A stretch of DNA of 64,000 bases. It comes from Phycisphaerae bacterium (GTDB lineage Bacteria > Planctomycetota > Phycisphaerae > Phycisphaerales > SM1A02). The stretch spans positions 1 to 64,000 of the forward strand of contig JAEUIT010000039.1 of assembly GCA_016795035.1 (NCBI GenBank). The letters run 5' to 3'. The notes under the pieces are model-generated. The model saw nothing but the letters and a program-made list of their open reading frames with translations, was not told the DNA's origin and made no database searches. Below, piece after piece: positions 26,918 to 43,862 of the stretch. How positions within the stretch are numbered: position 1 is the stretch's first letter; the number at the start of each line of letters is the position of its first letter. The translations under genes were made by a program, and so were the position numbers.

Positions 26918-29900
26918 TCACGCCACGTCGACGACCACGGCGTGCGGCGCGCGATCGTCCGTGAGCGTCACCGTCAGGCTGGGCTGGTCCACGCCGTCGA
27001 CGGAGACCCGAACGACGTTCGCGCCGGGGCCGGTTCGTCGCACGTCGATGGTGTACGTCGTCTCGCGAAAGCGATAGCGCGCCCGAAATCCGCTCCACCC
27101 GGCGGGCATGCGCGGGGCGACGCGCAGTCGGTCGACCTCGACGCGCACGCCGAGGAGCGACTCGCTGAGGAGGCGGTACATCACGCCCGCCGATCCCGTG
27201 TACCACGTCCAGCCGCCTCGCCCTGTGTGCGGCGCCACGGTGTAGATGTCGGCCGCAAGCACGTACGGCTCGACTCGATAGGTTGCAATCGCGTCCGGCG
27301 ACATTCCTAGGGTGACGGGGTTCACGAGCGCGAGAAGCTCCCACGCGAGGTCCGCGTCGCCGAGCGCCGCGCAGGCCATCAGCGTCCATAGCGCCGCATG
27401 GTTGTACTGCCCGCCGTTCTCGCGAACGCCCGGAACGTATCCCTTGATATATCCAGGGTCGGAGCGGCCGCGGTCAAATGGCGGGTCGAGCAGGCGAATC
27501 CGCCGACCGGCACGATCCCCGGCGCCGACGAGCCGCTCGATCGCGTGGTCCATCGCGCTGCGTGCCCGTTCCGGCGCCGACGCGCCGGAGAGGACGGCCC
27601 AGCTCTGCGCCACCGCATCGATCTGGCACTCGTCGTTGCCGCGAGACCCGAGCGGCTCGCCGTCGTCGAAGTAGGCCCGCCGATACCAATCGCCGTCCCA
27701 TCCGTGCATCTCCACGTTGCGGCGCAGCGTCTCCGCATGCTCGTGACACCGCCGGGCGGTGTCCTCGTCGCCGCGCTTCCGCGCGAGCGCTTCGAAGTCG
27801 GCAAGCACGCGCACGAGGAAGAACGCAAGCCATACGCTCTCGCCCTTGCCGCGGGCGCCCACCAGGTTCATGCCGTCATTCCAGTCGCCCGAGCCCATGA
27901 GCGGCAGCCCATGCTCGCCCGTGCGCAGACCATGGTCGATCGCGGCGACGCAATGCTCGTAGAGCGAGCCCGATCGCTCGGAGCGCTGCGGAAGATCAAA
28001 ATAGGAATCCTCCTCCGGCCGCAGCGGCCGTCCCTTGAGATAGGGGGCCTCGACGTCAAGCACGCCGGTGTCCCCCGTCGTGGCGACGTACCGGCACACC
28101 GCGGCGGGCAACCAAAGATAGTCGTCGGAGATGCGCGTCCGCACGCCCCGACCGATCGGCGGGTGCCACCAATGCTGCACGTCGCCCTCCTCGAACTGAT
28201 GCGCGGCGCACCGCACGAGGTGCTCGCGACAGAGAAGAGGTTCCGCGTGCAGGAGCGCCATGACATCCTGAAGCTGATCGCGGAATCCGAAGGCGCCTCC
28301 AGACTGGTAGAACCCCGTCCGCCCCCAGAGACGGCACGAGATCGTCTGGTAGAGCAGCCATCCGTTGGCCATCACGTCGACGGCCGGGTCGGGCGTCTCG
28401 AACTCGAGGGCACCCAGCGTGCGCGTCCACTGCGCGGCGACCGCCTCGAACGCACGCTGCGCGCCGGACACGCTACGAAACCGTCGCATGAGACGCCGCG
28501 CCTCGTCCTCACTCGCGGCGACCCCGAGGACGAACACGACCTCACGCTCCTCGCCGTCCTCAAGCTCGATCGGCGCCTGCATCGCCGCACAAGGATCGAA
28601 GCCCGCACCGAGCCGTCCGGAGAGCCGCACCCGTCGCAGCGCCGCGGGCTGCCCGCTCTCTCCGTTGCGGCCGAGGAACTCGGTCCGGTCCCCCGTGACG
28701 GTGCGCACGGGTTCGCTGCAGTCGACAAAGACAAGCCGATCTGCGAACTCCGCGCTGTACGGATTGCGCGCGAAGATCGCGCCGGTCGTCGGATCGAGCT
28801 CCGTCGCCACGTGCATCAGCGTCTTCGCGCGAAGGTCCCCGAGCACAAGCTCCCAGTAGCCGGTGACGGAAAGCCGCCGCGGTCGTCCGGAGGCGTTGAC
28901 GACTCGAAGCCGAGCAACCTTGACCGGCGCGTCGGCTGCAACGTAGAGCCGGAGCTCGGTCGATATCCCCTCGCACGTGTGCTCGAACGCGCTATAGCCG
29001 AATCCGTGGCGGATCGTGAACGAGGCGGCGCCCGCGTTTGCGGCGTGCCCACGGCCGGACGGGAGCGGCGTGGGCGTCCAGACGCGTGCGGTCTCCTCGT
29101 CGCGAAGGTAGATCGCCTCGCCGCTGACGTCCGAAACCGGATCGTTCCTCCAAGGCGTGAGCCGAAACTCGTGGCTGTTGCCCCACCATGTATAGGAACC
29201 GCCGCTCTCCGAGACGAGCGTCCCGAACTGGGCGTTCGCGATCACGTTCGACCACGGCGCCGGCGTGCGCGCTCCGTGTTGAAGCCGGACCACGTACTCG
29301 CGACCGTCGGATCGGAACCCACCGAGGCCGTTGAAGAAGCGAAGCGCTTCCGTCGGCGGTTCCTCGGCTCGCGGAGCCTCGCGCCGCGAGCGTGACGGCT
29401 GCAACGCGGGGATGAACGACTCCGTCCTGTCGCGACGAGCCGCTTGCTCCTCGAGCGTTCCGGCTTCGTCGAAGAGAACGACCCGCGCGACCGTCTGCAG
29501 CAGGGCGCGATCCTCGTCCGACATCTGCTCCCCGCGCCGCACGAAGATGCCGCCCGGCTTGTCGAGGAGCGCCGCCTCCGTGCTCGCGCCGACGACATCC
29601 ACGATCATCTGTTGCAGTACGTGGTGGTACACCGAGCTGTCCTCGTTCCATATGACGAGGTCGACCGGCAGCCCGCGCATGCGCCAGTACGCATGCGCCT
29701 TCACCGCCTGCCGCATCAGTTCGAGCCGCTCCGCGTCGCGAATTCGCACGAGCACGATCGGGATGTCGCCGGAGATGCCGTAGCTCCAGAGGCCCGACTG
29801 GCCGCGGCGATTGCGCGTGAGCACGCTCGGCTTGGCACGCCGAAGCCCGGAGGCGAACACGATCGACCCAGCGAGTTGCTCGTAACACTCCGCTTCCTGC

Positions 29901-32900
29901 TCCGTCACGTTAAGTTGGCGCAAGAGGATCTGGCTATGCGTCGTCGCGAGATCGAAGATGCGGTCGGCGAGGCGCGGGTCGCAGTATCGCTCGGTCATGG
30001 CTTCGACCGCCGCGCGCGTCTCGGCGATGCCCGTGACGAAGTCGACGATCACCGATTCGTTCGGTGCAAGTCGCGCCGTATGCCGGATCGCGACGATCGG
30101 ATCGAGCACCGCGCCGCTCGAGTCGGAGAGCGGCCCGATCGCGTCAAGCGCGGACGGCCTCGACGCGTCGCGGCCTCGGCCGAGGAAGAGGCCGCGGTCC
30201 GTCTCGAATGATGGCGCGCCCACCGTGGTCCCGCGCACGGACAGGAGATGCATCAGCCAGGGCGGCCGCTCTTCGGCGGATCGCGGACGGCGCGTGCACA
30301 GGATTGCCTGCCGTCGGCGGACGAGCTCGGTCTGCACGAAGAGGTTACTGAAGGCGCGATGCGCGGCGTCTTGGCCAGCCGGCGCGAGCACGATCTCCGC
30401 ATAGCTCGTGAACTCGATCGTGCGCGTCGTGTCGGACCGATTGGTGATCGTCACGCGCCGAAGTTCGACGTCGTCCTCCGGTGACACGCTGATCTCGGCG
30501 TGCGTCTCGATCCGACTCTCGACGCGACGGAACTCCGCTCTCGCTTGGGTGAAGATCGCCTCGTAGCGGCCACTCGGCCTCGCGCCCGGTTGCCACGACG
30601 TCGACCACGTCTCGCCAGACTCGATATCGCGGAGATAGCAGAAGGTGCCCCAGCAGTCGCGCGTGGCATCCTCCTGCCAGCGCGTGATCTCGATGTCGCG
30701 CCAGCGGCTGTAGCCGCCGCCGGAGTTGGTGACGACGACGTGATAGCGCCCGTTCGAGAGGAGCCCCACCTCGGGCGGTCCGCCGACGGGATCGTCGAAG
30801 ATCCGCATCGACCCTTCCGCCGCGTCGGCGATGGGGCGCGTCGCGCTGGCCTCGGCCGCGTGCGGAAAAATAGGTGAGAGCGCGCGCGGCACGCGTTCCT
30901 GGAGGAGATGGACGCTCGCGCGGAGCGCCGGATCCGCGTTGAATCGACGTTGCATCGGCCGATCGAGGAGCGCGTAGTCAAACGCGAGCAGGCTCATGCC
31001 CTGGTGGTGCGCCATGAACTGCCGCACCACGACGTGCGTCGCACGGCGCGGAAGTCGCGACGGCGTGAAGTCGATCGCCTCATACAGACCGCAGGCGCCT
31101 TGCGCGCCAAGCTCCGAGAGCCGAGCGAAGTTTCGGCAGGCGGCGTCGGGATCGACCATCAGTGCGAGCGCCGTCGCGTACGGCGCGACGACGATGTCGT
31201 CGGCAAGTCCACGTTTCAGCCCGAGGCCGGGCACGCCGAACGCGCGGTACTGGTAGTTGAGATGGGCGTCCGTTGCGAAATACCCCGACTCCGACATTCC
31301 CCACGGCACGTCTCGGCGTCGCGCATACGTAATCTGGCGCTGCACCACCGCGCGATAGGTGTGGTCGAGCAGCGTCCCCGGGAACGACGGCATCACGAGG
31401 AGCGGCATGAGGTACTCGAACATCGAGCCGCTCCAGCTGAGGAGCGCGGGCTCGCTGCCGGTGGTCGTCAGGAGTCGGCCAAGCGCGAACCAGCTCTCCT
31501 GGCCGACTTGGCCGCGCGCGATCGCGACGAAGGACGCAAACCGCGCCTCCGACGCGAGCAGGTCGTAGAACGCGGCATCGAGCCGATGCTCGTTCACGCC
31601 ATATCCAATGGCGAAGAGCTCGCGCTCCGGGTCGAAGAGGAACGTGAAGTCCATCTCCCCCGCCTCCTCGCACCGCGCGGCGGCTTGCGTGAGCTGCGAG
31701 ATCCGCGCGGTGGCCGCGCGTGCAGACGCCAGCACGCGCTCGCGCACGCATGTCGCCCAGGCGCACTCGACCGCGCCTCCGGCCCCGGGCGCCGGCGCGA
31801 CCGCGAGCGTTTCCGATTCGGCGAGCATCGCAAGTTCGCGCAGCGTGACCGCGCGCTCCGCCCCGCGGTCGAGCCGTGCGAGAATCGCGCGATAGGCCTC
31901 GGTGCGCGGCTCTTCCGGCGCGTCGGCCTCGTCGGCCGCAACGGGGAGCCCGGCGATCGACGTCCACGACGTCAACGACTGCAGGTCGTCGCGGTGGTCC
32001 GCACAGGCGCGCGCGAGCGCGGTCGCCCACCAGATTGCGTCGGCCCCGACGTCGGGAATCCGCTCGATCTCGAACGCGAGCGCCACGCTTCGCTGCGCCA
32101 TGCGACCGAGACGCTCGAGGGCACCACGCGTGGTCGTCGACTCGTGCATGAGATCGGCGCTCAGTCGCGCGAGGCGTGCGATCAGGTCCGCCGTCGTGCG
32201 ATCGGGGCGAATCTCGTCGAGCAGCACCTCGACCGTCGCGCGGAGTCCGCCGAAGAGCCGCGCCGGAACGATGGGCGCGTCGATGAGGCCGAGCAGTCCC
32301 GACTTGAGAATGTGCAGATGCCCCGCGAAGTTCCCGCTGTCGACGGTCGAAACATAGAACGGCGGCATCGGACGCAGGGAGCGCGTGTCGTACCAGTTGT
32401 AGAGGTGGCCGCGGTGCCGATCGAGACCCGCGACCGTGTCGAGCGTGTTGGATATGCGTTGCAGCATCCGGCCGCGACTGACATATCCAAAGTCCGCGGC
32501 GGCGAGATCGGAGAGAAGCGCGAGCCCGATGTTCGTCGGGCTGGTCCGCGAGGCGACCGGGACCGGACGGTCGGTCTGCACGTTGTCCGGCGGAAGCCAG
32601 TGCTCCTCCGCGTTGACGTACCGCTCGAAGTAGCTCCACGTGCGCCGGCTCAGCCGTTCGAGCATGGCTCGCTGCGAGGCCGAGAACACGAACCGCTCGG
32701 GCATCCGAGGCCGACTGATCCACCACGCCGCCACCGGCGCGAGGAACCACGGCGCGAGGAACGGCATGGCCCACGGCAGCGACTCGGGCCGCACGAAGAG
32801 GCACGCGGCTGCAACGCCGAGCGCGAGCGCCGGCGCGCACCACATCGCGCGAAGGTATCCCGAAAGCTGGTCCCGCGCCCGACGCTCGATGTCGCCTGCG

Positions 32901-35668
32901 GTCGTCCACTCGAGGAGGTGCCGACGCGTCACGAACATCCGCACCAGGGTTTTCGTCAGCGCGGAGAGATTGATCCATGCGTCATGCGGGAGGACGACGA
33001 GCGCCAAGAGCCCCTGCAGCAGCCGATGGCCGAGCGTCGCGCCGGCCGCCCTCGCTCGCGCCCGCACGGGCAGCTCGGCCGCGGGAGTCACGACGTCGCC
33101 GACGAAGCCAAGCGCCGAGGCGATCGCAAGCGTGGCGAGCACGACGATCGTGGCGGCGGGCGCAAGCGACGGCACGCCGATCCAGGCTGCAACGAGGAGT
33201 GCGACCATCGCGATCGGAACCACGCTGCGCCGAAGGTTGTCGAGGATCTTCCACCGCGAGAGCGTCGAGATCGGATTGCGCACCCAGCGCGACGCGCGCG
33301 ACGGGACATACGGAAGAAGCCACCAAAGGATCTGCCAATCGCCGCGCACCCAGCGCTCGCGCCGGCTGGCGTCGTCGAGGTAGCGGGAAGGAAAGTCCTC
33401 GTACAGCTCGACGTCGCTCAGAAGCCCGGAGCGCGCATACGTGCTCTCGAGCAGATCGTGGCTCAGGATCGTGTCGTCGGGGAACGCCCCGCACGTCGCG
33501 ACGAAGGCGTCGATGCCATAGATGCCCTTTCCTATGAAAGTGCCTTCATCGAAGAGATCCTGATAGACGTCCGACACCATGCGCGTGTACGGGTCGATGC
33601 CGGCATCTCCGCACGCGAGGCGCACGAAGTGCGACCGTTGCGAGCTCGGCAAGCTCACGCCGACGCGCGGCTGCACGATTCCGTAGCCGGCAACCACGCG
33701 AGCGCGCGAGCCGTCGGCGTCGGCGCGCACGACCGGGCGATTAAGCGGATGGGCCATCGTCTCGACCATGCGTCGCGCCGCATCGCGCGGGAGCTGCGTG
33801 TCGGTGTCGAGCGTGATGACATAGCGGGCGCGTTGCAGCGCGGCCGTCTCTCCGACGATCGTGGCAAAGAGGTCGTGCGCCGCCGCGCCGCGTAGCCACG
33901 CGTTCAGGTCGTGGATCTTTCCCCGCTTGCGCTCGTGCCCCATCCAATGCCCCTCGCGGGCATTCCATCGGCGCGGGCGGTGAAGCAGCGCGAAGATGTC
34001 GGATCGCGCGGTTCGGTATTTCGCGTTGAGCGCCGCGACGCCGCGCGCCGCGAGCTGCACGAGCTCCGCGTCGACCTCCGACAGCTCGTGCGGGCCGTCG
34101 CGCAGATCGGTGAGGAGCGCGAAGTGAAGCATCGGGTCGCGATTCGCGAGGTACAGCACCTCGAGCGACTCGAGCAAGCGCTCGACTCCCGCGCGATCGA
34201 CGAGCATCGTCGGCACCGCCACGAGAGTTCGGCAGGCTTCGGGTATCCCGCGCCGAAAGTCCATGCGCGGCAACGGACGCGGCGGCACCGACAGCGTGGC
34301 AATCCAGTTGACGATCGCGAAGCTCGCCTGCGAGAGGCATACGACCGCGGGAATCGCGAGAAGCCAGAGCCAGAGCGCTCGAACGTCCTCGACCCCGCCG
34401 ACGCGCCCGAGGAGCACGATGGCGATGGCGACGAGCGCCGCGGCGCTCGACAGATAGATCGCCAGCGAGCGTCGGGCCAAGGCCCGCACGACGGTCGTGC
34501 GAAGCGGCGTACGGACGTGCAGAAGCCGCTCGAGTTCCGTGCGCCCCGCGTCGAGGAGGTGATAGCTGATGTGCGCGTCGCGTCGTTCAGGATCGGCATC
34601 GCCACGGCGCGCGAGCGCGGCGGTCGCGACCTCCACCTCGGTTCGGCCGCTCTGCTTGGCGAGATCCTCGATCGCGTGGCGACAGCGATCGCGCGTCGTG
34701 AAGTCCATCGTCGCGTAGACGCCGGTCGGATCCTGCCGCAGCACGCGCTCGACCGCGCTCTGCGCCTCGACGAAGTCGCGCCAGTCGCTCGAGACGAGCC
34801 GTCGAAGGCTGCCGATGCTGTTGCCCATCGAGACCTGATCGGCGGCGCGCGCCTGTCCGTCGATGCGGACGAGCTGCTCGATCGTCGCGCCCTCCTCGGC
34901 AAGTCTGTGTTGCAGCCAGCTGTGCACGAATGTGAAGTGCGGACTCTGTCCTTGGATATGTCGGGTGAGCTCGGCGAGAAACGCGCCCGAGAGCGTCACG
35001 CGGGCGCGGGCCATGTCGGCCATCGTCACGATGAGATCCGACGGATTCTGCTCAACCGTGCGAAGCATGCGCGCCGCCCACCCGTGCGCGAGATCCTGCT
35101 CGCGCTGCGTGGCGGCGATGCGCGCAGACACGCGGCGCAGGTTCTCGATGAGCGCCAGGCGCAACGCGATCGGCAGCGCCCAGAGCTCGCCGATCGTCAG
35201 GCTCTTCGACGCCTGATACGCCGCGACGAATCCGTTCAGGCTCGGAAGATCGACCCTGCCGTCGACGTGCGCGATGAGTTCGAGCGCGATGGCGTAGACA
35301 CGCGGATGCCCGGCGAGCGCGCCCCTGGCGAGGCGCGGAAGCTCCCTGCTGTACGACGTCGGGAGGTGCCGCCGCGCGGTGCGAATCTGCTCCTCGATGA
35401 GGTAGAAGTTGTCGAGGAGCCACTCCGCCGCGGGGGCGATCGGCTCGTCGCGTTCGACCGCGGCGATGACCAGCTCGTACGCGTCGACGAGCACGCGCTC
35501 GTTCTCGGCGAGCCTCGGTATCAGCCGTTCCGGGCCGCGGCCCTTCGCCAACTCATGCTGCGCGGCGAGCGCGCGCGCATGGCTCTCGAGCTGATCGACG
35601 CTGTAGAGCTCGCCCTGGAGCGGGAGCTCGCGGCCCCGCTCGTGCCGATGCCGACGCCGAGCGAACAC
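26918..35668 (-). CDS. NdvB-like cyclic beta-1,2-glucan synthase
   Basis: About 2916 aa, the largest gene here. Known NdvB proteins polymerise, cyclise and trim beta-1,2-glucan, a periplasmic osmoregulator. The N-terminal part has membrane helices and a GT84 transferase (VITLDTDTQLPRDA near residue 620). A second membrane cluster is near 840-1000, and a glycoamylase-like domain follows near 1400-1600 (GLFDEGxx-type GYGVNEHRLD, MAHHQGMSLLAFDY). Two carbohydrate-binding beta domains lead to a C-terminal GH94 phosphorylase-like domain with GSGDWNDGMNLVG near 2600. The frame stays open to a TTG at 35734, but GTG 35668 leads into the usual LPLQGELYSVDQLE start. Confidence 0.88.
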   Translation of the reverse strand: MFARRRHRHERGRELPLQGELYSVDQLESHARALAAQHELAKGRGPERLIPRLAENERVLVDAYELVIAAVERDEPIAPAAEWLLDNFYLIEEQIRTARRHLPTSYSRELPRLARGALAGHPRVYAIALELIAHVDGRVDLPSLNGFVAAYQASKSLTIGELWALPIALRLALIENLRRVSARIAATQREQDLAHGWAARMLRTVEQNPSDLIVTMADMARARVTLSGAFLAELTRHIQGQSPHFTFVHSWLQHRLAEEGATIEQLVRIDGQARAADQVSMGNSIGSLRRLVSSDWRDFVEAQSAVERVLRQDPTGVYATMDFTTRDRCRHAIEDLAKQSGRTEVEVATAALARRGDADPERRDAHISYHLLDAGRTELERLLHVRTPLRTTVVRALARRSLAIYLSSAAALVAIAIVLLGRVGGVEDVRALWLWLLAIPAVVCLSQASFAIVNWIATLSVPPRPLPRMDFRRGIPEACRTLVAVPTMLVDRAGVERLLESLEVLYLANRDPMLHFALLTDLRDGPHELSEVDAELVQLAARGVAALNAKYRTARSDIFALLHRPRRWNAREGHWMGHERKRGKIHDLNAWLRGAAAHDLFATIVGETAALQRARYVITLDTDTQLPRDAARRMVETMAHPLNRPVVRADADGSRARVVAGYGIVQPRVGVSLPSSQRSHFVRLACGDAGIDPYTRMVSDVYQDLFDEGTFIGKGIYGIDAFVATCGAFPDDTILSHDLLESTYARSGLLSDVELYEDFPSRYLDDASRRERWVRGDWQILWWLLPYVPSRASRWVRNPISTLSRWKILDNLRRSVVPIAMVALLVAAWIGVPSLAPAATIVVLATLAIASALGFVGDVVTPAAELPVRARARAAGATLGHRLLQGLLALVVLPHDAWINLSALTKTLVRMFVTRRHLLEWTTAGDIERRARDQLSGYLRAMWCAPALALGVAAACLFVRPESLPWAMPFLAPWFLAPVAAWWISRPRMPERFVFSASQRAMLERLSRRTWSYFERYVNAEEHWLPPDNVQTDRPVPVASRTSPTNIGLALLSDLAAADFGYVSRGRMLQRISNTLDTVAGLDRHRGHLYNWYDTRSLRPMPPFYVSTVDSGNFAGHLHILKSGLLGLIDAPIVPARLFGGLRATVEVLLDEIRPDRTTADLIARLARLSADLMHESTTTRGALERLGRMAQRSVALAFEIERIPDVGADAIWWATALARACADHRDDLQSLTSWTSIAGLPVAADEADAPEEPRTEAYRAILARLDRGAERAVTLRELAMLAESETLAVAPAPGAGGAVECAWATCVRERVLASARAATARISQLTQAAARCEEAGEMDFTFLFDPERELFAIGYGVNEHRLDAAFYDLLASEARFASFVAIARGQVGQESWFALGRLLTTTGSEPALLSWSGSMFEYLMPLLVMPSFPGTLLDHTYRAVVQRQITYARRRDVPWGMSESGYFATDAHLNYQYRAFGVPGLGLKRGLADDIVVAPYATALALMVDPDAACRNFARLSELGAQGACGLYEAIDFTPSRLPRRATHVVVRQFMAHHQGMSLLAFDYALLDRPMQRRFNADPALRASVHLLQERVPRALSPIFPHAAEASATRPIADAAEGSMRIFDDPVGGPPEVGLLSNGRYHVVVTNSGGGYSRWRDIEITRWQEDATRDCWGTFCYLRDIESGETWSTSWQPGARPSGRYEAIFTQARAEFRRVESRIETHAEISVSPEDDVELRRVTITNRSDTTRTIEFTSYAEIVLAPAGQDAAHRAFSNLFVQTELVRRRQAILCTRRPRSAEERPPWLMHLLSVRGTTVGAPSFETDRGLFLGRGRDASRPSALDAIGPLSDSSGAVLDPIVAIRHTARLAPNESVIVDFVTGIAETRAAVEAMTERYCDPRLADRIFDLATTHSQILLRQLNVTEQEAECYEQLAGSIVFASGLRRAKPSVLTRNRRGQSGLWSYGISGDIPIVLVRIRDAERLELMRQAVKAHAYWRMRGLPVDLVIWNEDSSVYHHVLQQMIVDVVGASTEAALLDKPGGIFVRRGEQMSDEDRALLQTVARVVLFDEAGTLEEQAARRDRTESFIPALQPSRSRREAPRAEEPPTEALRFFNGLGGFRSDGREYVVRLQHGARTPAPWSNVIANAQFGTLVSESGGSYTWWGNSHEFRLTPWRNDPVSDVSGEAIYLRDEETARVWTPTPLPSGRGHAANAGAASFTIRHGFGYSAFEHTCEGISTELRLYVAADAPVKVARLRVVNASGRPRRLSVTGYWELVLGDLRAKTLMHVATELDPTTGAIFARNPYSAEFADRLVFVDCSEPVRTVTGDRTEFLGRNGESGQPAALRRVRLSGRLGAGFDPCAAMQAPIELEDGEEREVVFVLGVAASEDEARRLMRRFRSVSGAQRAFEAVAAQWTRTLGALEFETPDPAVDVMANGWLLYQTISCRLWGRTGFYQSGGAFGFRDQLQDVMALLHAEPLLCREHLVRCAAHQFEEGDVQHWWHPPIGRGVRTRISDDYLWLPAAVCRYVATTGDTGVLDVEAPYLKGRPLRPEEDSYFDLPQRSERSGSLYEHCVAAIDHGLRTGEHGLPLMGSGDWNDGMNLVGARGKGESVWLAFFLVRVLADFEALARKRGDEDTARRCHEHAETLRRNVEMHGWDGDWYRRAYFDDGEPLGSRGNDECQIDAVAQSWAVLSGASAPERARSAMDHAIERLVGAGDRAGRRIRLLDPPFDRGRSDPGYIKGYVPGVRENGGQYNHAALWTLMACAALGDADLAWELLALVNPVTLGMSPDAIATYRVEPYVLAADIYTVAPHTGRGGWTWYTGSAGVMYRLLSESLLGVRVEVDRLRVAPRMPAGWSGFRARYRFRETTYTIDVRRTGPGANVVRVSVDGVDQPSLTVTLTDDRAPHAVVVDVA

Positions 35669-35883
35669 GCTCCACCACGAACTAGAGCTCGATCGCGAAT
35701 GATGATCTGCGATGGAGCACGTTCCTCGCGGCAAGGAACGTCCGAGCGAAGTGCGTCGAAGCGGCGATGCCGCATCACTTGTACGCGCGTCGGCCTTGGG
35801 TCACGCGCGAAAAACTGGAGTTCGTCGTGAATGGGCCGCTTCGGCGCACATGTCGCGCCGAACCCGACGCACTGCATGTCCTG

Positions 35884-37281
35884 TTAGCCGGTCCAGCCGC
35901 CGATGAGGATGCCGAGGTCGGCGGCGTCGGTCGTTCCGTCGGCGTTGAGATCCGCGAGCGCCGTGGACCACGAGCCGATGAGGAGACCGAGATCGGTCGC
36001 GTCGACGCGCGCGTCGTGATTCAAGTCGCCGCTCGGCAGCGGAAGCCCGAGCGCCGCGGCGGCGTCGATGCGACCGGCCCCGAGCGCGCCCGGGTACTTC
36101 GGATTCGCGAGCGCGATGTTCGCGGCCGTCGCGGCCAGCGTGGCGACCGTGGCCTCGCCGTTCGTGCCTGCGTGGCTCATGACGAGCGCGGCCACGCCGC
36201 TCAGCACGGCGGCGGAGGTGCTCGTTCCGCTCGCGCCGGCGTATCCGCCGCCGGGGAATGTGCTGATGACATCGATGCCCGGCGCGCAGAGCGTGACGAA
36301 CTCGCCGCAGTTCGACCAGACGGCCTTGACGTCGGAGGCGTCGGTCGCAGCGACGGCGCACACGCCGCTCATCTCGGACGGAAACGTCCCCTGCCCCACG
36401 TTGCCGCCGTTGCCGGCTGAAACGACGACAAGGATGCCTTCGGCGAGCAGCGAGTCGATGACCGGCTCGAGCAGCCCGATGTCCTCCACGTTGCCGAAGC
36501 TCAAGTTGACCACGTCCGCGCCGGCGTCGCGGGCGGCGAGCAGCGCCGACGCGACGGCGAAGGCGGAGCCGTGTCCGTCGCTGTCGATCGCGCGGATCGG
36601 CAAGAGGGTCGCGTGCGGTGCGATCGTCGCGACGATTCCGCTCACGAAGGTGCCGTGCCCAGACATCTCGTCGGCGACGCCATCGCCGTCGTCGTCGAGT
36701 CCGTTGCCGAGGTCGCCCAGGCCGGCGCCGTCTCCGACGAAATCGAGGCCCGGCAACGTGGAGATGCCGGCGAAGTGCGGATGCGACAGATCGAGCCCGG
36801 TGTCGATGCATGCAACGACGACACCGTCGCCGAGCGCCACGTCGTGCGCTTCCGGAAGGCGAATGCGCTCCCAGAGGTACTGGGCGTCGAACGCGGTCTT
36901 GTCGGAGGCGAAGAAGAAGCTCTGCGTCTGGCCTTCGACGGTCTCGCCCGACTCGTTGAACTCGGCCTCCTCGACGCCCGTCTGCGCCATGAGTGCCGCG
37001 ACCAAGTCCGCCTCGCAGATCGGATCCGGCGCGGAGAGGAGATAGAGCCCTTCGCTCGGAATCGAGAGCGCGAGCGTCACGCCGGGAAACTGCCGCGACA
37101 CGGCTGCGAGCACGGCGTCGATCGACGCGTTCGAGTGGAGCTCGACCACGACCTGGTCGGGGAGCGCGCCCTGCGGAAGGCATGGGGTGCCGCCACCGCC
37201 GCCGAACGCGTTGCACGACGCGACGAGTCCGAGAGATCCCGCGACGACACGCCACAGACCGATGCGTGAGTGATGGCTCAT
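35884..37281 (-). CDS. Subtilisin-like protease with dockerin-like tail
   Basis: A 465-aa S8 protease, exported: the N-terminus VVAGSLGLVASCNAFGGGGG has a possible lipobox Cys. The catalytic triad is visible: Asp in ACIDTGLDLSHPHF near residue 160, His in MSGHGTFVSGIVA near 209, Ser in SGTSTSAAVLSG near 354. The last 50 residues hold two dockerin-like repeats (GDLNHDARVDATDLGLLIG, ADLNADGTTDAADLGILIG). GGAAGGAAG precedes the ATG. It is the last gene of an operon behind the CHAT protease (34-bp gap), so the CHAT gene, 214-aa gene and sigma factor probably form one regulatory unit with it. Its substrate is unknown. Confidence 0.92.
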   Translation of the reverse strand: MSHHSRIGLWRVVAGSLGLVASCNAFGGGGGTPCLPQGALPDQVVVELHSNASIDAVLAAVSRQFPGVTLALSIPSEGLYLLSAPDPICEADLVAALMAQTGVEEAEFNESGETVEGQTQSFFFASDKTAFDAQYLWERIRLPEAHDVALGDGVVVACIDTGLDLSHPHFAGISTLPGLDFVGDGAGLGDLGNGLDDDGDGVADEMSGHGTFVSGIVATIAPHATLLPIRAIDSDGHGSAFAVASALLAARDAGADVVNLSFGNVEDIGLLEPVIDSLLAEGILVVVSAGNGGNVGQGTFPSEMSGVCAVAATDASDVKAVWSNCGEFVTLCAPGIDVISTFPGGGYAGASGTSTSAAVLSGVAALVMSHAGTNGEATVATLAATAANIALANPKYPGALGAGRIDAAAALGLPLPSGDLNHDARVDATDLGLLIGSWSTALADLNADGTTDAADLGILIGGWTG

Positions 37282-37315: not shown

Positions 37316-40213
37316 TCAGCGTGCAACGACGGAGGCGACCGTGCCGAAGGCGCCCCACTGGCTCGCATGCGGGCGACGCTCGCGTGTCGCACGCATGGCG
37401 GTGCGGAGCGCCGCGGCGACGTCGCGCCCGCTCCAACGAGCTCCGTCGGCCCGCGACGACGCTCGTGCGTCCAACTCCGCGTGCATCGCGCTCATGAGAT
37501 CCGCGGTCGCCTCATCGTGCGTCGGCCACGCGCTCATGACAAGCGCTTTCGCGCCGGCGACGAAGAAACCCTGCTCGAGCCCAACGAGTTCGTCGCCACC
37601 GCCGACCGCGACGCGTCCGGTATCGCAGCCGCTCACGACGACGATCGTTCCGGGAATGCGCCACGCATGCAGGTCCGTCACCGTCAGCCATCCGTCGGCG
37701 AGACGAATGCCTGATCGCAGCGGACTGTCGTGCAGGAATCGACCGTGCGTAGCCATGTGGAGAATCGCGGCATTGGCCGCTTCTCGACGAACCGTATCCA
37801 TCGACGCGCGCTCCCTGCAAAGGATGCAGGCGCCACGGTCCATCGCCGCGATGGCGTCGATTTCCCCGGCAATCGCCGGCGCATTCGCGTCGGCCACGCC
37901 GACGAGCACGCGTCGGCCGCTGGAGTTCGCGCTGCCGGCATGGCCCAAGGCGTGCACGACCGCGAGGCTCGGCGCGGTGGCCACGTCGGCCGCGAGGCCG
38001 ATCGGCTCCCTCCGCGTTGCAGCCGTCTGCGGGGCGAGGAGGTGCATCGGCAGCGCGTGCAGCGGGCCTGCCGGCACGAACTGCACCGCCCCCGCCCCAT
38101 CGAGCAGGTCGGCGATCGGCGCGAGGAGCGTGTCCGCAAGCGCCGCGAGCGACGACTCGACGTCGCGCTCGATGCGTGCCGCGCGTGTTCCCGTGGCCAT
38201 GAGTCCACGTTGCAAGTGGAACCGCACCTGCTCGGTCGATTCGGTCACGTCGTCGACGTCGCCGAGATCCGCGCCGCGCACTTCGCCCCCTCGCGACGCC
38301 ACGGCGAGAAGCCTCGCGCCTGCAACGTGGAACACGACGATCGGGACGGGCTGCGACACCAGCAAGTCCACGACCTCCGGCCCGACCGGCGGCGCGAGCG
38401 GCGAACCTGCACGCCAACGGGCGTCGGCACGAACCGAGAGCAAGCGCTGCCGGTCCTCGATCGCGACCATGGCCGACCGCCAGGCGTCGCTTGTGGCGAT
38501 CGCGGGCTGGCGATCGAGCTCGCTGAGAAGGACGTTGGCCTCGTGGCGAAGCGCGATTGCCTCGCGCGAGAGATCGGCGGCGGCTCCCTCGGAGAGGTCG
38601 AGAAGCGCTTCGGCGGGCACCGACCCGAGGATTGCCTCGAAGAGCCCGCGACTCCGGACGCGCTCGCTCACGACGAGCGACTCCCGCAGCGCGGCGGGGC
38701 TGCCGTCGCGCACGAGCTCGCGCGTCAGGTCGGCCGCGGCGCCCACGTTCGCCGCGCCGTAGGCGACCCGCGCGCCGCCCGACCGGAACGTGCCTCGCAC
38801 GCGCTCCACGCGATCGAGCGACGCCCGCAGGAGCGAGCGTGCGTCGTCGGACTTCCCGCGGGCAAGCTCGATCTTGGCTGCAACGTGGAGCGCGTCGGCC
38901 TCGAGCGGGCGGACAAGGTGCGTCTCGGCGATCGCGAGGACCGGCGTCGCCGCATCGGACGCGCCGGCCACGTCGCCGAGCGCGATCAGCGCGTCGGCGA
39001 GGCGCAGCCGCGCGACGGCGGCTTCCACCGGCCTTGCCGCGAGCAACGAGACCGCACGCTCGAGATCTTGCCGCGCCGCAACCAAGTCGCCGCGGGCGAT
39101 CGAGAGCTCGCCCCGGATCGCGCACAGCGTGCCTTCGGCGCTCGTGTCCCCCGCGGCGAGCGCCGAGTCGGCGAGGAGCGCGTGGGCATCGTCGAAGCGC
39201 TGCAATCGCCCAAGCGCCCGCGCGAGGCCGAAGCGGGCACGGAGCGCCTCGAGCGTGAGCCCGGCACGCTCGAGCGCTTCGAGCGCCTCGCGATACTCGA
39301 CGAGCGATTCGCGCAGGAGCCCCGACTGCGCCAGCGCGTCGGCCTCCTCCGCCTGGAGCCGCGCGGCGTCGCCTTCGGCGCGAATGGAGAGGTGGCGCTG
39401 CCGAACTTCCTCGAAGAGTTCGATGGCCTCGGCGAGCCGACCTTGCCGCGCGAGAAGGTCGGCGAGATTGCCGTCGACGATCGACTTGGCGACGTGCGCG
39501 TCGGTGGCATTGAGCCCCTGTCGCGCCTCGCGGAACGCCGACTCCGCCTCACGGAATCGCTGGAGGTCGAGGAGCGCCTCTGCGAGATTGCTCATGAGCT
39601 GCGCGCGGCCCACGGGATCGTCGCCCCATGCCTCGAGCGCCGCGCGGATGTGCTCGATGGCACGCTCGGGCTGCCGTCGCATGCGCTCGATGACGCCGAG
39701 GTTCGCGCGGGCGCGGGCGACGAGCGGCCGCGCGCCCCGCGCCTCGAAGATCGCGAGGCTCCGTTCGCCGACGACGGCCGCGTCGTCGAGCTTGCCCTGC
39801 CGTGCGAGCGCGTGCATGCGCCCCATGCCGACGCGACCGGGCAACACGTCGAAGTCGGTGCCCGGATGCGCCGCGACCTCCGCGTCGGCCGCGTCGAAGC
39901 TCGAGGCGGCGCCAGCCAATTCCGTCGCGTACATCTGGGCGACGCCATGCGCGAGAAGCGCCGCGACCGTGCCCTTCGCGGCGTTCAGTTCGCGGGCGGC
40001 CGCAGCCAATGTCGCGGCGTCGTTCGCGGCGCGGCGCGGATCGTTCAGGGCCCGCCGATGCAATTCCTCGGCGGCGCGGACGAGCGCGTCGTCCTGCATC
40101 GCGCGATCTTCTCCGCGCGCGCGGGCGCGCTCGGCCAGCGTGCGCGCGTCACAGCCCGCGGCCAGAGCCTCGCTCAACGTTGCACACGCGTCGTCGGGGC
40201 TTTCGGAACTCAT
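37316..40213 (-). CDS. TPR-repeat CHAT-domain protein (caspase-like protease)
   Basis: 965 aa. Residues about 40-560 are tetratricopeptide repeats, likely a sensing or scaffold part. The C-terminal third (about 640-965) is a CHAT domain, a relative of caspases and separase. The catalytic dyad is present: His in HMATHGRF near residue 820, Cys in VVVSGCDTG near 861. The supporting signatures LHALPMHLLAP and GLEQGFFVAGAKALVMSAW are complete. There is no signal peptide, so it should act in the cytoplasm. It lies 17 bp after the 214-aa gene. Some CHAT-TPR proteins act in defence or cell-death systems, but which proteins this one cuts is not visible. Confidence 0.93.
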   Translation of the reverse strand: MSSESPDDACATLSEALAAGCDARTLAERARARGEDRAMQDDALVRAAEELHRRALNDPRRAANDAATLAAAARELNAAKGTVAALLAHGVAQMYATELAGAASSFDAADAEVAAHPGTDFDVLPGRVGMGRMHALARQGKLDDAAVVGERSLAIFEARGARPLVARARANLGVIERMRRQPERAIEHIRAALEAWGDDPVGRAQLMSNLAEALLDLQRFREAESAFREARQGLNATDAHVAKSIVDGNLADLLARQGRLAEAIELFEEVRQRHLSIRAEGDAARLQAEEADALAQSGLLRESLVEYREALEALERAGLTLEALRARFGLARALGRLQRFDDAHALLADSALAAGDTSAEGTLCAIRGELSIARGDLVAARQDLERAVSLLAARPVEAAVARLRLADALIALGDVAGASDAATPVLAIAETHLVRPLEADALHVAAKIELARGKSDDARSLLRASLDRVERVRGTFRSGGARVAYGAANVGAAADLTRELVRDGSPAALRESLVVSERVRSRGLFEAILGSVPAEALLDLSEGAAADLSREAIALRHEANVLLSELDRQPAIATSDAWRSAMVAIEDRQRLLSVRADARWRAGSPLAPPVGPEVVDLLVSQPVPIVVFHVAGARLLAVASRGGEVRGADLGDVDDVTESTEQVRFHLQRGLMATGTRAARIERDVESSLAALADTLLAPIADLLDGAGAVQFVPAGPLHALPMHLLAPQTAATRREPIGLAADVATAPSLAVVHALGHAGSANSSGRRVLVGVADANAPAIAGEIDAIAAMDRGACILCRERASMDTVRREAANAAILHMATHGRFLHDSPLRSGIRLADGWLTVTDLHAWRIPGTIVVVSGCDTGRVAVGGGDELVGLEQGFFVAGAKALVMSAWPTHDEATADLMSAMHAELDARASSRADGARWSGRDVAAALRTAMRATRERRPHASQWGAFGTVASVVAR

Positions 40214-40230
40214 GCACGACTCTCATCGAC

Positions 40231-40875
40231 TCAACGTTGCTTGAGGACGACGTCTCGAACCACGAGTGGACGATCGTCGCCCGGGCGCTCGATGACGAAC
40301 GCGATGCGCGCCGCGTTCGTCGTGAACGCGAAGCCGCCGTCGTCGGCGATGGCGATCGTCGTGAGCGGCGCGCCGGTGTCGAGGTCGACCACGTGCAACG
40401 CGAAGGCGTCGGACTCGGGCTCGTGCGTCAGCTGGCCGCGGACGCGGAGGTCGTGCTCGCCCGTCGGTTCGGCTTGGAGGTCGAGCCACGCTTCGCGCGG
40501 CTCGTCGTCGTCGCCCGCGGAAGCGCCGTGAAACGTGCGGACGGGCGCGGCGGTGCTGCGCAGCCCCGCGAGCGCGAGGGCCGGATCCGGCTGCGTCTCA
40601 GAGAGGAGCAGCGCTCGCGCCGAGCGAAGGACGTTCTCGAGCCACTCGGCCAGTCGGGCCGAGATCGGCTGGCGCTCGGGCTGCGTGCGGGCCGCAAGCA
40701 GTCCGCTCGCCCATTCGTGGAGCGACGCAGGCGGCTCCTCGAGCGGCAGCTCCCGGAGGACGCCCACGATTCCGCGGATCCGCTCGCGCTCGCCCGGAGC
40801 GGCCTCGGCGGCGGCGCCAAGGATCGACTCGATGGCCGCATCGATTCGCCCGGCGATGTCTCGTTCATCTGGCAT
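40231..40875 (-). CDS. Uncharacterised 214-aa protein of the sigma-CHAT operon
   Basis: 214 aa, no signal peptide, no membrane segment. I do not recognise the family. The N-terminal ~100 residues look helical and acidic (ERDIAGRIDAAIESILGAAAEAAPGERERIRGIVG). The C-terminal ~100 look like a beta sandwich (EAWLDLQAEPTGEHDLRVRGQL, HVVDLDTGAPLTTIAIADDGGF). The ATG at 40875 was preferred over the frame to 41025, which would read Arg/Pro-rich spacer sequence. Its place between ECF sigma factor and CHAT protease suggests an anti-sigma, adaptor or protease-substrate role; all of these are guesses. Confidence 0.75.
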   Translation of the reverse strand: MPDERDIAGRIDAAIESILGAAAEAAPGERERIRGIVGVLRELPLEEPPASLHEWASGLLAARTQPERQPISARLAEWLENVLRSARALLLSETQPDPALALAGLRSTAAPVRTFHGASAGDDDEPREAWLDLQAEPTGEHDLRVRGQLTHEPESDAFALHVVDLDTGAPLTTIAIADDGGFAFTTNAARIAFVIERPGDDRPLVVRDVVLKQR

Positions 40876-41037: not shown

Positions 41038-41718
41038 TCATGGGTCGGCCTTCGTTCGGTCGGCCCCCGCCGGGCGGAACGACGGCCCGAGAAGCTCAAG
41101 AAGCTGCTGGAGGCATCGCGCGCGCTTCGGTCCGATGCTGCCGACCGGCATCTCGAGTTGTCGGCTGATGGCTGCGTAGGGAACGTCGTCGTCCCGGACG
41201 AGCGCCATCAGGAGGTCGCGACAGCGCGGCTCGAGTTTCGCGAGCGCCTCGCTCACGAGCTGCGCCTCCTCCATGCGCGCGACGAACGCGTCGTCTTCCG
41301 CGTTGCAGGCGGACGTGTCAATCGTGTCGGCGCTCGCCGCGCCGGCGCTGCGGCGCCGGTGGCGCGTCGCAAGGCGGATCGCGATGCGCCGCGTCGTCGT
41401 GATGAGCCACCGCGGCAACGCCGGTTCGTGCCGCAAGAGCGGCAGTTGGCGAAGCAACCCCATCCAGACTTCCTGGAAGACGTCGTCGGTGATCTCGTCC
41501 GGCACGCCGAGTCGCCGGATCACGCTGTAGACGAGCCGCTCATACCGCGCGACGAGCGTGCGCCATGCGGCATCGCTTCCGTCGCAGCACGCGCGGATGA
41601 GATCGCCGTCGCTCGGTGACGCCGCGCTCGCGCTTCCCGCGCAGGGGATCGTCGATGGGCGCTTCGAGTGGTTCGCTCCGGAGGGCACGGAAGGCCGCGG
41701 AGGGTCGACCGAGGTCAT
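41038..41718 (-). CDS. ECF-type RNA polymerase sigma factor
   Basis: 226 aa. Region 2 is WRTLVARYERLVYSVIRRLGVPDEITDDVFQEVWMGLLRQLP-like, including DVFQEVW near residue 85 (key D-x-x-Q-E-x-W). Region 4 has LEPRCRDLLMALVRDDDVPYAAISRQLEMPVGSIGPKRARCLQQL, a classic helix-turn-helix for the -35 element (residues about 160-210). No membrane anti-sigma gene follows. The next gene is the 214-aa protein, then the CHAT protease and a subtilase. It probably drives this operon or related envelope genes. The N-terminal ~40 residues look disordered, so the true start may be further in. Confidence 0.9.
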   Translation of the reverse strand: MTSVDPPRPSVPSGANHSKRPSTIPCAGSASAASPSDGDLIRACCDGSDAAWRTLVARYERLVYSVIRRLGVPDEITDDVFQEVWMGLLRQLPLLRHEPALPRWLITTTRRIAIRLATRHRRRSAGAASADTIDTSACNAEDDAFVARMEEAQLVSEALAKLEPRCRDLLMALVRDDDVPYAAISRQLEMPVGSIGPKRARCLQQLLELLGPSFRPAGADRTKADP

Positions 41719-41886: not shown

Positions 41887-42591
41887 TCACGAGCCGCGCG
41901 GGGGAGCGAACTGCGGGGGCATCACGGGATTCGGGGCGCTCGGCGCCAGCGCGCCCCTATCGATGAGCCGCTTGCGGATCTCCGGAAGATGCTCCGCGAG
42001 GTACTGCGCCATCGGACGGTCCTCGTCCTTCCAGTCGTACTGTCGGGCTTCGTCGAGGGCCGCTTCCGGCGTCCATCCCTGATACAGCATGCGAAACGCG
42101 GCGACCACGCCGCCGGTCCGCTGGGTGCCGGCCGAGCAATGCACGAGCGTGATGACGCCCGTGCGATCCGCCTCGATGAGCGCGGCGACGGCGTCGGTGT
42201 ACACGCCCACGTCGCCGGTGCCGTCGCCGATCAGCGGGAAGTTGCTGATGGCAACGTTGAGTTCCTTCGCGACCTCGTACTCCTTCACGCGACCGGGATC
42301 GTCCTCGTCGAGCTGGTTCAGGTCGAGGATGTGCTGGATGCCGCGCGACGAGAGCACCGGTCCCACGACGTATTCGGACAACTGGCCGCTGCGGTAGATC
42401 GTCGCCGTCACAGGTCCAAGCCGCTTCGCGACGATGCGGTCGCGCAGCACGCCGAACCACAGCCCCACGCACGCGCCGATGACCGCCGCGACGATCGCCG
42501 CATTGCGCAGGAACCGCCCGAGGTGAAAGCCGCGCTCGCGGCCTGCGGCAGCAGCAACGGTGGAGGCGGGTGAGACGTCGACCGAGCTCAT
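41887..42591 (-). CDS. Membrane-anchored dual-specificity or Tyr phosphatase
   Basis: A 234-aa protein. One membrane helix lies near the N-terminus (NAAIVAAVIGACVGLWFG, residues about 30-48), then a catalytic domain whose signature HCSAGTQRTG (C-x5-R, near residue 150) is intact. The general acid is likely in DGTGDVGVY upstream. It resembles planctomycete protein-tyrosine and dual-specificity phosphatases; the substrate is unknown. The ATG overlaps the stop of the upstream gene as TGATG, so translation is coupled. A small perfect stem (CCCTGCA-cgaat-TGCAGGG, 41794-41812) lies downstream, possibly a terminator or operator. Confidence 0.86.
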   Translation of the reverse strand: MSSVDVSPASTVAAAAGRERGFHLGRFLRNAAIVAAVIGACVGLWFGVLRDRIVAKRLGPVTATIYRSGQLSEYVVGPVLSSRGIQHILDLNQLDEDDPGRVKEYEVAKELNVAISNFPLIGDGTGDVGVYTDAVAALIEADRTGVITLVHCSAGTQRTGGVVAAFRMLYQGWTPEAALDEARQYDWKDEDRPMAQYLAEHLPEIRKRLIDRGALAPSAPNPVMPPQFAPPRGS

Positions 42592-43862
42592 CAGCCGAGT
42601 GTACCGGTGGGCCGGTCGATCAATTCGTAGCGAAAGACGAGGATGGTCGGGATCGGCGGATAGCGAAGCGTGATGCGATAGCCGACGAAATCCTCGAGCG
42701 CGCACCCGAGTCGCTCGGCGGTGAAGAGCGCGAGTCGACGGGAGCCCGCAAGTTCGGAGGCCTCGAAGTCCTCGCGATCGTCGCCCGTGCGCTTCGTCTC
42801 GAGCTCGACGAGGGCCTCGCTCAAGGGCAGTTCGCCGCGGTCACGGCCGCAGGTCGGATAGGTCGGCGCGCCCGGCATCTGGCTATAGAGATGCACGGTC
42901 GGCGGCATCGCCTCGGTCAGCTCGCGATGCACGAAAAGGTCGTGCTGCGAGAACTCGGCGGGCGTGTTGAGCGACGCGAGCAATTCCCCGTATCGATCGT
43001 GCTCCGTGCGATAGCGGCACACGTCGGCGCGATTGATCCAACCGGTGACGCACGTGACGCTGCCGGTCTTGCCGACGGGGCCTTCGGGGATCTCGTAGCG
43101 CGTGAGGCGATCGCTGCCTTCGGCAACGCGGAGCACCGGCTCCGGCGTGGAGCAGAAGCGGCGGACCAACGGCGCGCGATCCGGCTGCGTGCTCGGATCG
43201 AGCGGCTCGTACGGAAGGCGCGACGCCGACGAGCCGTCGTCGAGATATCGCTGCACGGTGGCGACGGCCCAAGGGACGTCGGAGCGCAAGCGACGGAAGT
43301 CGACGAGACCGCTCACCGTCGCAAGGTCGAGCGTGTCCGGCTGCTCGCGCGACGGGGCGATGAAGTGCGCGGAGATGCGAGCGCGCGTCTGCACGCCCCA
43401 GATCGCGCTATTGCCTTGGAACGCCTTCTTCCGGAGCGCCTCCTCGGACTGCTGCTTGCGCTCGCCCTGCCGCTCGCCGATCATCATCACGAACGTGTCA
43501 CGGTCGCCGCAGTGCGTCTCGATCATGCGCTCGAACGCGTCGAACGCTTCGCGCATCTCCTCGACTCGCTGCGACGACGCGCCCGCCTTGGTGAACTGGC
43601 GCACGACGATGTTGATGCCCGGCCGGCCCGGAATCAGGACCGCCGAGGCCATCGGGTCCTCGTCGCACACGACGCGCGAGAGCTTCCACGCGAGACTCTT
43701 GTCGAGCCCGAACTCGCGAGACATCTCCTGCGGCCTCGTGGGATCGGCGTCCATCGACGTGATGAGCGAGGCGAGCGAAGAACGGAACGCCTGCAACGTC
43801 GAGCGCAGGTCGTTCTCAAACGAGGGTGCTGCGTGCCGCATGTCTTGGTGCACGGTGGTCAT
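42591..43862 (-). CDS. Uncharacterised protein with helix-turn-helix-like N-terminus
   Basis: 423 aa, soluble. I do not recognise the family. Residues about 48-68 (MSREFGLDKSLAWKLSRVV) look like a helix-turn-helix, so a DNA-binding role is possible. The rest is mixed alpha/beta with scattered Cys and His (HCGDRDTF, CVTGWINRADVC, YPTCGRDRG) that do not make an obvious metal site. It ends in TGATG, which also starts the phosphatase. Their coupling suggests a regulator or substrate-handling partner of the phosphatase. Confidence 0.7.
   Translation of the reverse strand: MTTVHQDMRHAAPSFENDLRSTLQAFRSSLASLITSMDADPTRPQEMSREFGLDKSLAWKLSRVVCDEDPMASAVLIPGRPGINIVVRQFTKAGASSQRVEEMREAFDAFERMIETHCGDRDTFVMMIGERQGERKQQSEEALRKKAFQGNSAIWGVQTRARISAHFIAPSREQPDTLDLATVSGLVDFRRLRSDVPWAVATVQRYLDDGSSASRLPYEPLDPSTQPDRAPLVRRFCSTPEPVLRVAEGSDRLTRYEIPEGPVGKTGSVTCVTGWINRADVCRYRTEHDRYGELLASLNTPAEFSQHDLFVHRELTEAMPPTVHLYSQMPGAPTYPTCGRDRGELPLSEALVELETKRTGDDREDFEASELAGSRRLALFTAERLGCALEDFVGYRITLRYPPIPTILVFRYELIDRPTGTLG

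Follow-up and report, generated by a model that had tools for sequence, protein, structure and literature searches.

A putative soluble anti-sigma factor encoded between an extracytoplasmic function sigma factor and a TPR-CHAT protease in a Phycisphaerae bacterium

A stretch of 64,000 nucleotides from a Phycisphaerae bacterium (contig JAEUIT010000039.1, positions 1 to 64,000; here called the window) encodes on its minus strand a protein of 214 residues, whose gene starts with an ATG at 40875 and ends with a stop codon at 40231-40233. It belongs to a row of genes encoding, in order, an extracytoplasmic function (ECF) sigma factor, the 214-residue protein, a TPR-CHAT protease, and an S8 subtilase with a dockerin; the gaps between these genes, calculated from the coordinates, are 162, 17, and 34 bases. 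We propose, with a probability of roughly 0.6, that the 214-residue protein acts on the adjacent ECF sigma factor as a class I anti-sigma factor, soluble and zinc-free, and is inactivated by the neighbouring CHAT protein. An original prediction, made from the letters alone, had placed an unrecognised protein here and had suggested that it could be an anti-sigma factor, a protease substrate, or a sensor. The open reading frame (ORF) is real and sits between the sigma and TPR-CHAT genes as claimed. Comparisons of sequence support the first of these roles well for the family to which the protein belongs and, mainly through two close relatives (from loci L064 and L065), for the window protein as well.

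The family of the middle protein

The 214-residue protein belongs to a conserved family that is defined by its place in the sigma/CHAT row. Searches with the protein alone return very little. The claim that it has no known motif agrees with the scans: Pfam gives no match up to E 1, and NCBIfam gives a sole match to PA2928_fam (E 0.12; 11.7 bits, the cut-off being 70). It matches nothing in the PADLOC defence library, and a single-sequence search of the PDB returns NtrC alone, at E 0.53. A search of genome contigs for close relatives of the protein found nothing, and plasmid records searched with the protein and with a relative (L114) yielded no matches. Among 150 relatives plus its own genome, a single-sequence search finds three other proteins at E ≤1e-3 (G001, G065, and G054). 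The remaining members of the family could be reached only through the CHAT gene.

Within the taxonomic family, 48 of the 181 genomes searched have a CHAT protein at E ≤1e-20 (59 rows, 58 places), while the majority have no match at this threshold. Fifty of the 58 places were fetched; the eight left out were mostly partial. In 47 of these 50 loci, CHAT is preceded on its own strand by a sigma gene, and the three loci with no sigma gene in reach (L085, L110, and L111) are each cut by a contig end, with L111 holding a truncated member of the middle family. In all 47 loci having the sigma gene in reach, a member of the middle family stands between sigma and CHAT, which bears out, beyond chance, the predicted fixed position between regulator and protease. 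Members were recognised at 45 of these loci in a first round from nine seeds, a number that then rose to 46, and L106 was added later. An S8 gene follows CHAT in 48 of the 50 loci, L075 and L084 having no adjacent S8 gene. A family profile built with the window member left out scores that member at 75.7 bits, compared to 11.0 bits for the best of 2000 shuffles; when L064 and L065 are also left out, the score is 63.3 bits. A second row of sigma gene, middle protein, TPR-CHAT, and S8 is present in the same genome (L079, G000 contig C47, 276000-288700).

The arrangement extends beyond the taxonomic family. For nine long outside relatives (L124, L126 to L131, L134, and L135), the genes for sigma, middle protein, and CHAT are consecutive on one strand in eight, the sigma match of L129 being on the opposite strand. 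In L124, L126, L128, and L130, the S8 gene lies upstream of sigma, indicating that the place of S8 in the module varies. A further relative, L141, which was left out of the nine, has a sigma-like ORF upstream (E 4.6e-5) and no CHAT match in the approximately 0.4 kb to the contig end; a second full-length match in G385 was given no locus. The records of five members are metagenome assemblies (four of Planctomycetota, one of Phycisphaerales). At another locus, L154, an anti-sigma-like protein with repeated helical units has as neighbours an ECF sigma gene and an ORF that the CHAT profile matches over its TPR part.

The coordinates of the row and of the parts of the 214-residue protein are collected in the table.

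Table. Genes of the row and parts of the 214-residue protein in the window
Feature	Coordinates	Strand	Basis
214-residue protein, putative soluble anti-sigma factor	40231..40875 (stop codon included)	-	ORF; leave-one-out family profile 75.7 bits
N-half, residues 1-102, putative diverged class I anti-sigma domain	40570..40875	-	hhalign with two close relatives against family N-halves
C-half, residues 112-210, carboxypeptidase-regulatory-like beta-sandwich	40246..40542	-	model and family matches
Arg106 codon, candidate cleavage site (speculative)	40558..40560	-	identical 46/46; low-confidence stretch between halves
ECF sigma factor, proposed partner	41038..41718	-	Pfam Sigma70_r2 7.7e-12; NCBIfam sigma70-ECF 4e-19
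TPR-CHAT protease, proposed inactivator of the anti-sigma factor	37316..40213	-	Pfam CHAT 2.8e-34; His + Cys dyad 50/50
S8 subtilase with dockerin, final gene of the row	35884..37281	-	Pfam Peptidase_S8 3.1e-32, Dockerin_1 1.4e-5; triad conserved

The two halves of the protein

Multiple lines of comparison make the assignment of the family N-half as a class I anti-sigma domain well supported. When 46 members were scanned singly against NCBIfam and Pfam at E up to 1, the anti-sigma models NF052375 and PRK13920 each matched 12 (best 1.8e-7 and 1.7e-6, respectively), the ChrR model TIGR02451 matched 7, and Pfam zf-HC2 matched 8 (best 2.8e-4). The family profile was also run on 392 genomes of the phylum, from which two samples were taken: 40 of the 42 strongest listed matches to the N-half only (one of the two omitted lies at a contig start), and 20 listed matches to the C-half only (those left out include two in G411 and three in G482). 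A same-strand ECF sigma gene ends near the start of the N-half-only match in 36 of the 40, the end falling anywhere between 8 bases within the match and 452 bases ahead of it. An ECF sigma gene was found just upstream of none of the 17 C-half-only matches with room for one; three more had no room. All 36 of the sigma-adjacent N-domains match NF052375 at E ≤0.01. Compared with these domains, the family N-halves give 97.8% (E 1.1e-12), a similarity that is to be expected of domains selected by the family profile; independent evidence comes from the sigma genes beside them and from their identity in NCBIfam.

A search of the PDB with the N-half profile points the same way at lower significance. 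After 29 TALE chains, the first rows are RseA (0.042, the best value for any anti-sigma factor in this list), MucA (0.17), and RseA again (0.3). Lower down, among unrelated chains, are DdvA (1.9) and 3hug_B (0.89), which is listed as a conserved membrane protein and which we take to be the anti-sigma factor RslA. The TALE repeat proteins at the top of the list (29 of 41 rows, whole-chain E to 1.3e-10) were set aside because no single TALE stretch passes, and their scores are read as sums over repeats. Other rows, including an opioid receptor and a peroxidase, were judged unrelated.

The domain appears to be both soluble and zinc-free. A hydrophobic N-terminal segment is present within the first 45 residues of 1 of 47 middle proteins by a crude test, and the hydropathy peak exceeds 1.6 in only 2 of 46 members, in keeping with the claim that there is no membrane part. 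The zinc motif Hx3Cx2C is found in none of the 46 members, and the 214-residue protein contains no Cys. Among the nine outside relatives, inspection by eye detects Hx4Cx2C in three and Hx5Cx2C in one (L124, L126, L128, and L135).

The N-half of the window protein is itself strongly diverged, and its tie to the family comes mainly through the two close relatives. In hhalign, the window protein together with these two gives 95.0% (E 3.6e-8) against the family N-halves. Scored alone, with L064 and L065 in the model, the window N-half obtains a score that is reached by 0 of 5000 shuffles, and L065 matches an anti-sigma model weakly (E 0.019). For the C-half, 0 of 5000 shuffles reach the score whether or not L064 and L065 are in the model.

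An AlphaFold2 model of the window protein, made from a shallow alignment (6 sequences; mean pLDDT 61), has four helices within residues 4-91 and a short helix at 98-101, all at low confidence, followed by eight strands in residues 112-210. In this C-terminal part, pLDDT is 67-88 for the blocks from residue 131 and 51-56 for residues 111-130. The protein had been described as having a helical acidic N-half and a beta-sandwich-like C-half. The helices are indeed predicted, and the C-half finds its matches, across the family, in sandwiches of this kind; the acidity, in contrast, is common to both halves, as residues 1-105 contain 17 Asp and Glu to 11 Lys and Arg, and the remainder contains 20 to 11. 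A class I domain consists of a bundle of three helices with a fourth added; helical N-halves are present in two low-confidence models, and the fold comparison covered the C-half. Foldseek, run with the window model and the second model, that of a relative, returned nothing at E ≤0.001; its alignments fall on the C-half, and no anti-sigma structures were seen among them.

The C-half appears to be a beta-sandwich of the carboxypeptidase-regulatory-like kind and not a peptidase. Pfam CarboxypepD_reg (PF13620) matches 12 of the 46 members at E up to 1 (best 2.6e-8); the window member is unmatched, and three relatives scored singly fall under the gathering cut-off. The family profile finds NOMO2 in the PDB at 2.2e-6, over the C-half, and the L114 model aligns best, among beta-sandwich domains, with a beta-glucuronidase (Z 9.4, rmsd 1.9, 77 residues). 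No carboxypeptidase enzyme family occurs among 25 of the 28 Pfam families matched by the 46 members. The commonest Pfam matches are regulatory-like and Ig-like domains and zf-HC2, and the clear homology to an unrelated enzyme family that would have spoken against the original prediction did not appear. The matches of the C-half suggest a binding or structural fold. Two loci contain C-half matches on their own: in L133, two adjacent short ORFs resemble the C-half alone, with no sigma or CHAT match on the stretch examined, and L138 has a C-half-only match immediately ahead of an ORF that matches the CHAT profile (E 3.4e-13), with no sigma gene on the upstream stretch (L189).

Proposed mechanism and alternatives

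The residues expected of active proteases are retained in the genes downstream. In the CHAT protein these are His826 and Cys866 when counted along the open frame, or, by subtraction, His823 and Cys863 when counting begins at the ATG; both are invariant across the 50 proteins aligned. The residues of the S8 triad are conserved in 48/48, 48/48, and 47/47, and the catalytic roles in both proteins are presumed from the motifs. A hydrophobic N-terminal segment after a basic residue is present in 32 of 48 S8 proteins by a crude test, which the window S8 protein fails; it has a lipobox-like VASC. In PADLOC, the window CHAT matches BovA at 6.6e-4 and the window S8 matches a subtilase model at 7e-20. 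Two further genes flank the row on the minus strand. Upstream of the sigma gene, 41887-42597 encodes a phosphatase-like protein for which Pfam PTP-SAK and Y_phosphatase3 reach their cut-offs, and directly downstream of the S8 gene is an ORF of 2938 residues (26918-35734), presumably resembling a cyclic glucan synthase.

The nearest precedent for a mechanism comes from type III-E CRISPR systems. Passages of PMC10028731 and PMC9729208 describe a TPR-CHAT protein, Csx29, that cleaves Csx30, which in turn binds and inhibits an ECF sigma factor encoded at the locus. The row in the window has candidates for all three of these roles, and for this reason the CHAT protein is proposed to inactivate the 214-residue protein. 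By this analogy, such inactivation is probable, and a role of the protein as CHAT substrate is plausible (PMC10028731, PMC9729208). The helical N-half would hold the ECF sigma factor encoded just upstream, with the C-terminal beta-sandwich joined to it through a flexible stretch. The CHAT protein, encoded 17 bases downstream, would sense a signal, perhaps via its TPR repeats, and would inactivate the anti-sigma factor, most simply by cleavage, thereby freeing sigma; the S8 protease, probably exported, would be the output or a further arm.

Where a cut might fall can only be speculated upon. Arg106, in the stretch between the halves (pLDDT <50 in the window model), is a speculative candidate, and an Arg is in the equivalent place, by eye, in the nine relatives outside the taxonomic family. 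The two C-half-only ORFs of L133 also carry a similarly placed Arg (by eye), which would suit a structural role too. According to the same two sources, in the passages concerned, Csx29 cuts Csx30 at residues 427-429 in one species (PMC10028731) and after L407 in another (PMC9729208), and the separase Asp that recognises Arg at P1 corresponds to a Lys in Csx29 (PMC9729208).

Several results weigh against the proposal. The window protein itself matches no anti-sigma model in Pfam or NCBIfam, and for the family, matches between models and single members lie well below the curated cut-offs wherever cut-offs were shown; NF058648, which models a subunit of an ECF nickel/cobalt transporter, likewise finds 11 of 46 members (best 1.8e-4). 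The comparison of the window group of three with the sigma-adjacent domains gives 55% (E 1.2e-4), and once L064 and L065 are taken out of the model, the score of the window N-half is equalled in 5 of 5000 shuffles. The least recognisable part of this N-half is its first helix, which in known anti-sigma/sigma pairs is the helix that binds sigma region 4, as stated in part of PMC7406223. Predicted structures of the N-half are of low confidence. A search of the stretches ahead of 45 sigma genes for a bipartite promoter motif common to them gave a null result, the best pair occurring in 8 sequences and those of shuffled sets in 6-8. Finally, the N-fragment of Csx30 remains on its sigma factor, RpoE, after cleavage (a passage of PMC9729208), and thus cleavage alone need not release sigma.

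This last point feeds an alternative in which the 214-residue protein is still the anti-sigma factor and the CHAT protein does not cut it, but binds it or has another target, such as the S8 protease. In favour of this, a cut that leaves Csx30-N bound to RpoE is no obvious release switch (PMC9729208, in the part concerned), the beta-sandwich could be a docking or ligand domain, and S8 accompanies the module in either of two gene orders. The CHAT dyad, identical in 50 of 50, speaks against this alternative, which we hold to be rather unlikely. The divergence of the window N-half, which matches no model and whose score is reached by 5 of 5000 shuffles once the close relatives are removed, would also fit a lineage in which the anti-sigma half has decayed or been repurposed, the protein now serving mainly as CHAT substrate or adaptor instead of sigma inhibitor. 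However, the sigma gene and gene order are retained, L065 still matches an anti-sigma model weakly (E 0.019), and the window group still resembles the family N-halves at E 3.6e-8, so that such decay seems improbable.

Very little likelihood is left to a protein with no part in sigma control, such as a beta-sandwich protein that binds carbohydrate or is associated with a carboxypeptidase. CarboxypepD_reg in 12 of 46 members at E up to 1 and the beta-glucuronidase sandwich domains that top the L114 model list (Z 9.4, rmsd 1.9, 77 residues) would suit such a protein, but these fold matches are limited to the C-half, the N-half is linked to sigma in 36 of 40 cases, and the 25 of 28 Pfam families shown include no carboxypeptidase enzyme family. 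An anti-sigma factor inactivated by the neighbouring CHAT protein is the reading that we prefer.

Relation to known systems

The 214-residue protein resembles class I anti-sigma factors (RseA, MucA, ChrR, and others) in its N-half similarity, in the position of its gene directly after an ECF sigma gene, and in its predicted helical N-half. Unlike these, it appears soluble and zinc-free, it is fused to a CarboxypepD_reg-like sandwich, and it is tied to a CHAT protease, not to a membrane protease or a redox switch. The likeness to the Craspase components (Csx30, CASP-sigma/RpoE, and Csx29) lies in the joint encoding of an ECF sigma factor, a sigma-binding protein (here putative), and a TPR-CHAT protein. 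Csx30, however, has 565 residues compared to 214 here, and the row adds an S8 subtilase gene. No Csx30 chain is among the PDB profile matches, Csx30 having not been compared directly and the Csx30 content of the PDB copy being unchecked. In the Csx29 model NF041237 (cut-off 300 bits), the window CHAT scores 14.6 bits, six of seven related CHAT proteins score 43-60 bits with no match for the seventh, and three unaffiliated ones, one of them shortened, score 25-28 bits. The CHAT proteins of this row are relatives of Csx29 and not members of its family.

A further parallel is ECF54, which a review (PMC8999054, in the passage concerned) gives as controlled without an anti-sigma factor and as having subtilase, CHAT, and 'carboxypeptidase' proteins in its neighbourhood; its example (SFT86700.1) comes from Geodermatophilus amargosae, an actinomycete. 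The difference from ECF54 as reviewed there is that the protein of the present row with a carboxypeptidase-regulatory-like half also carries a putative anti-sigma half, and the 'carboxypeptidase' of ECF54 may be the CarboxypepD_reg-like half of a similar anti-sigma factor. In the plasmid collection, 18 records have CHAT matches, and five of them were opened in search of an ECF54 locus from an actinobacterium. Two of these five list no nearby sigma gene and three are unannotated there; the family profile gave no middle-family match better than E 0.14 in the five, and Streptomyces chartreusis alone had sigma-like ORFs, of which the closer lies some 1.7 kb from CHAT. A literature search, which mostly did not cover subscription papers, found no title or abstract describing this anti-sigma family.

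A more far-reaching idea is that the row is a chromosomal counterpart of the Craspase output that has no RNA-guided part. The CHAT protein would part the anti-sigma half from the beta-sandwich at the linker Arg106 and so switch the ECF sigma factor on; the row would represent the general form from which type III-E took its sigma factor, Csx30, and Csx29, and groups like ECF54, described as lacking an anti-sigma factor, would gain one. We regard this wider idea as doubtful. Were the middle protein to be the anti-sigma factor, the missing part would be in hand and the mechanism would become directly testable. Should the proposal hold, a protein left unnamed by family searches would gain a likely function, and the output stage that Csx30 and Csx29 form in type III-E CRISPR would have a simple chromosomal counterpart.
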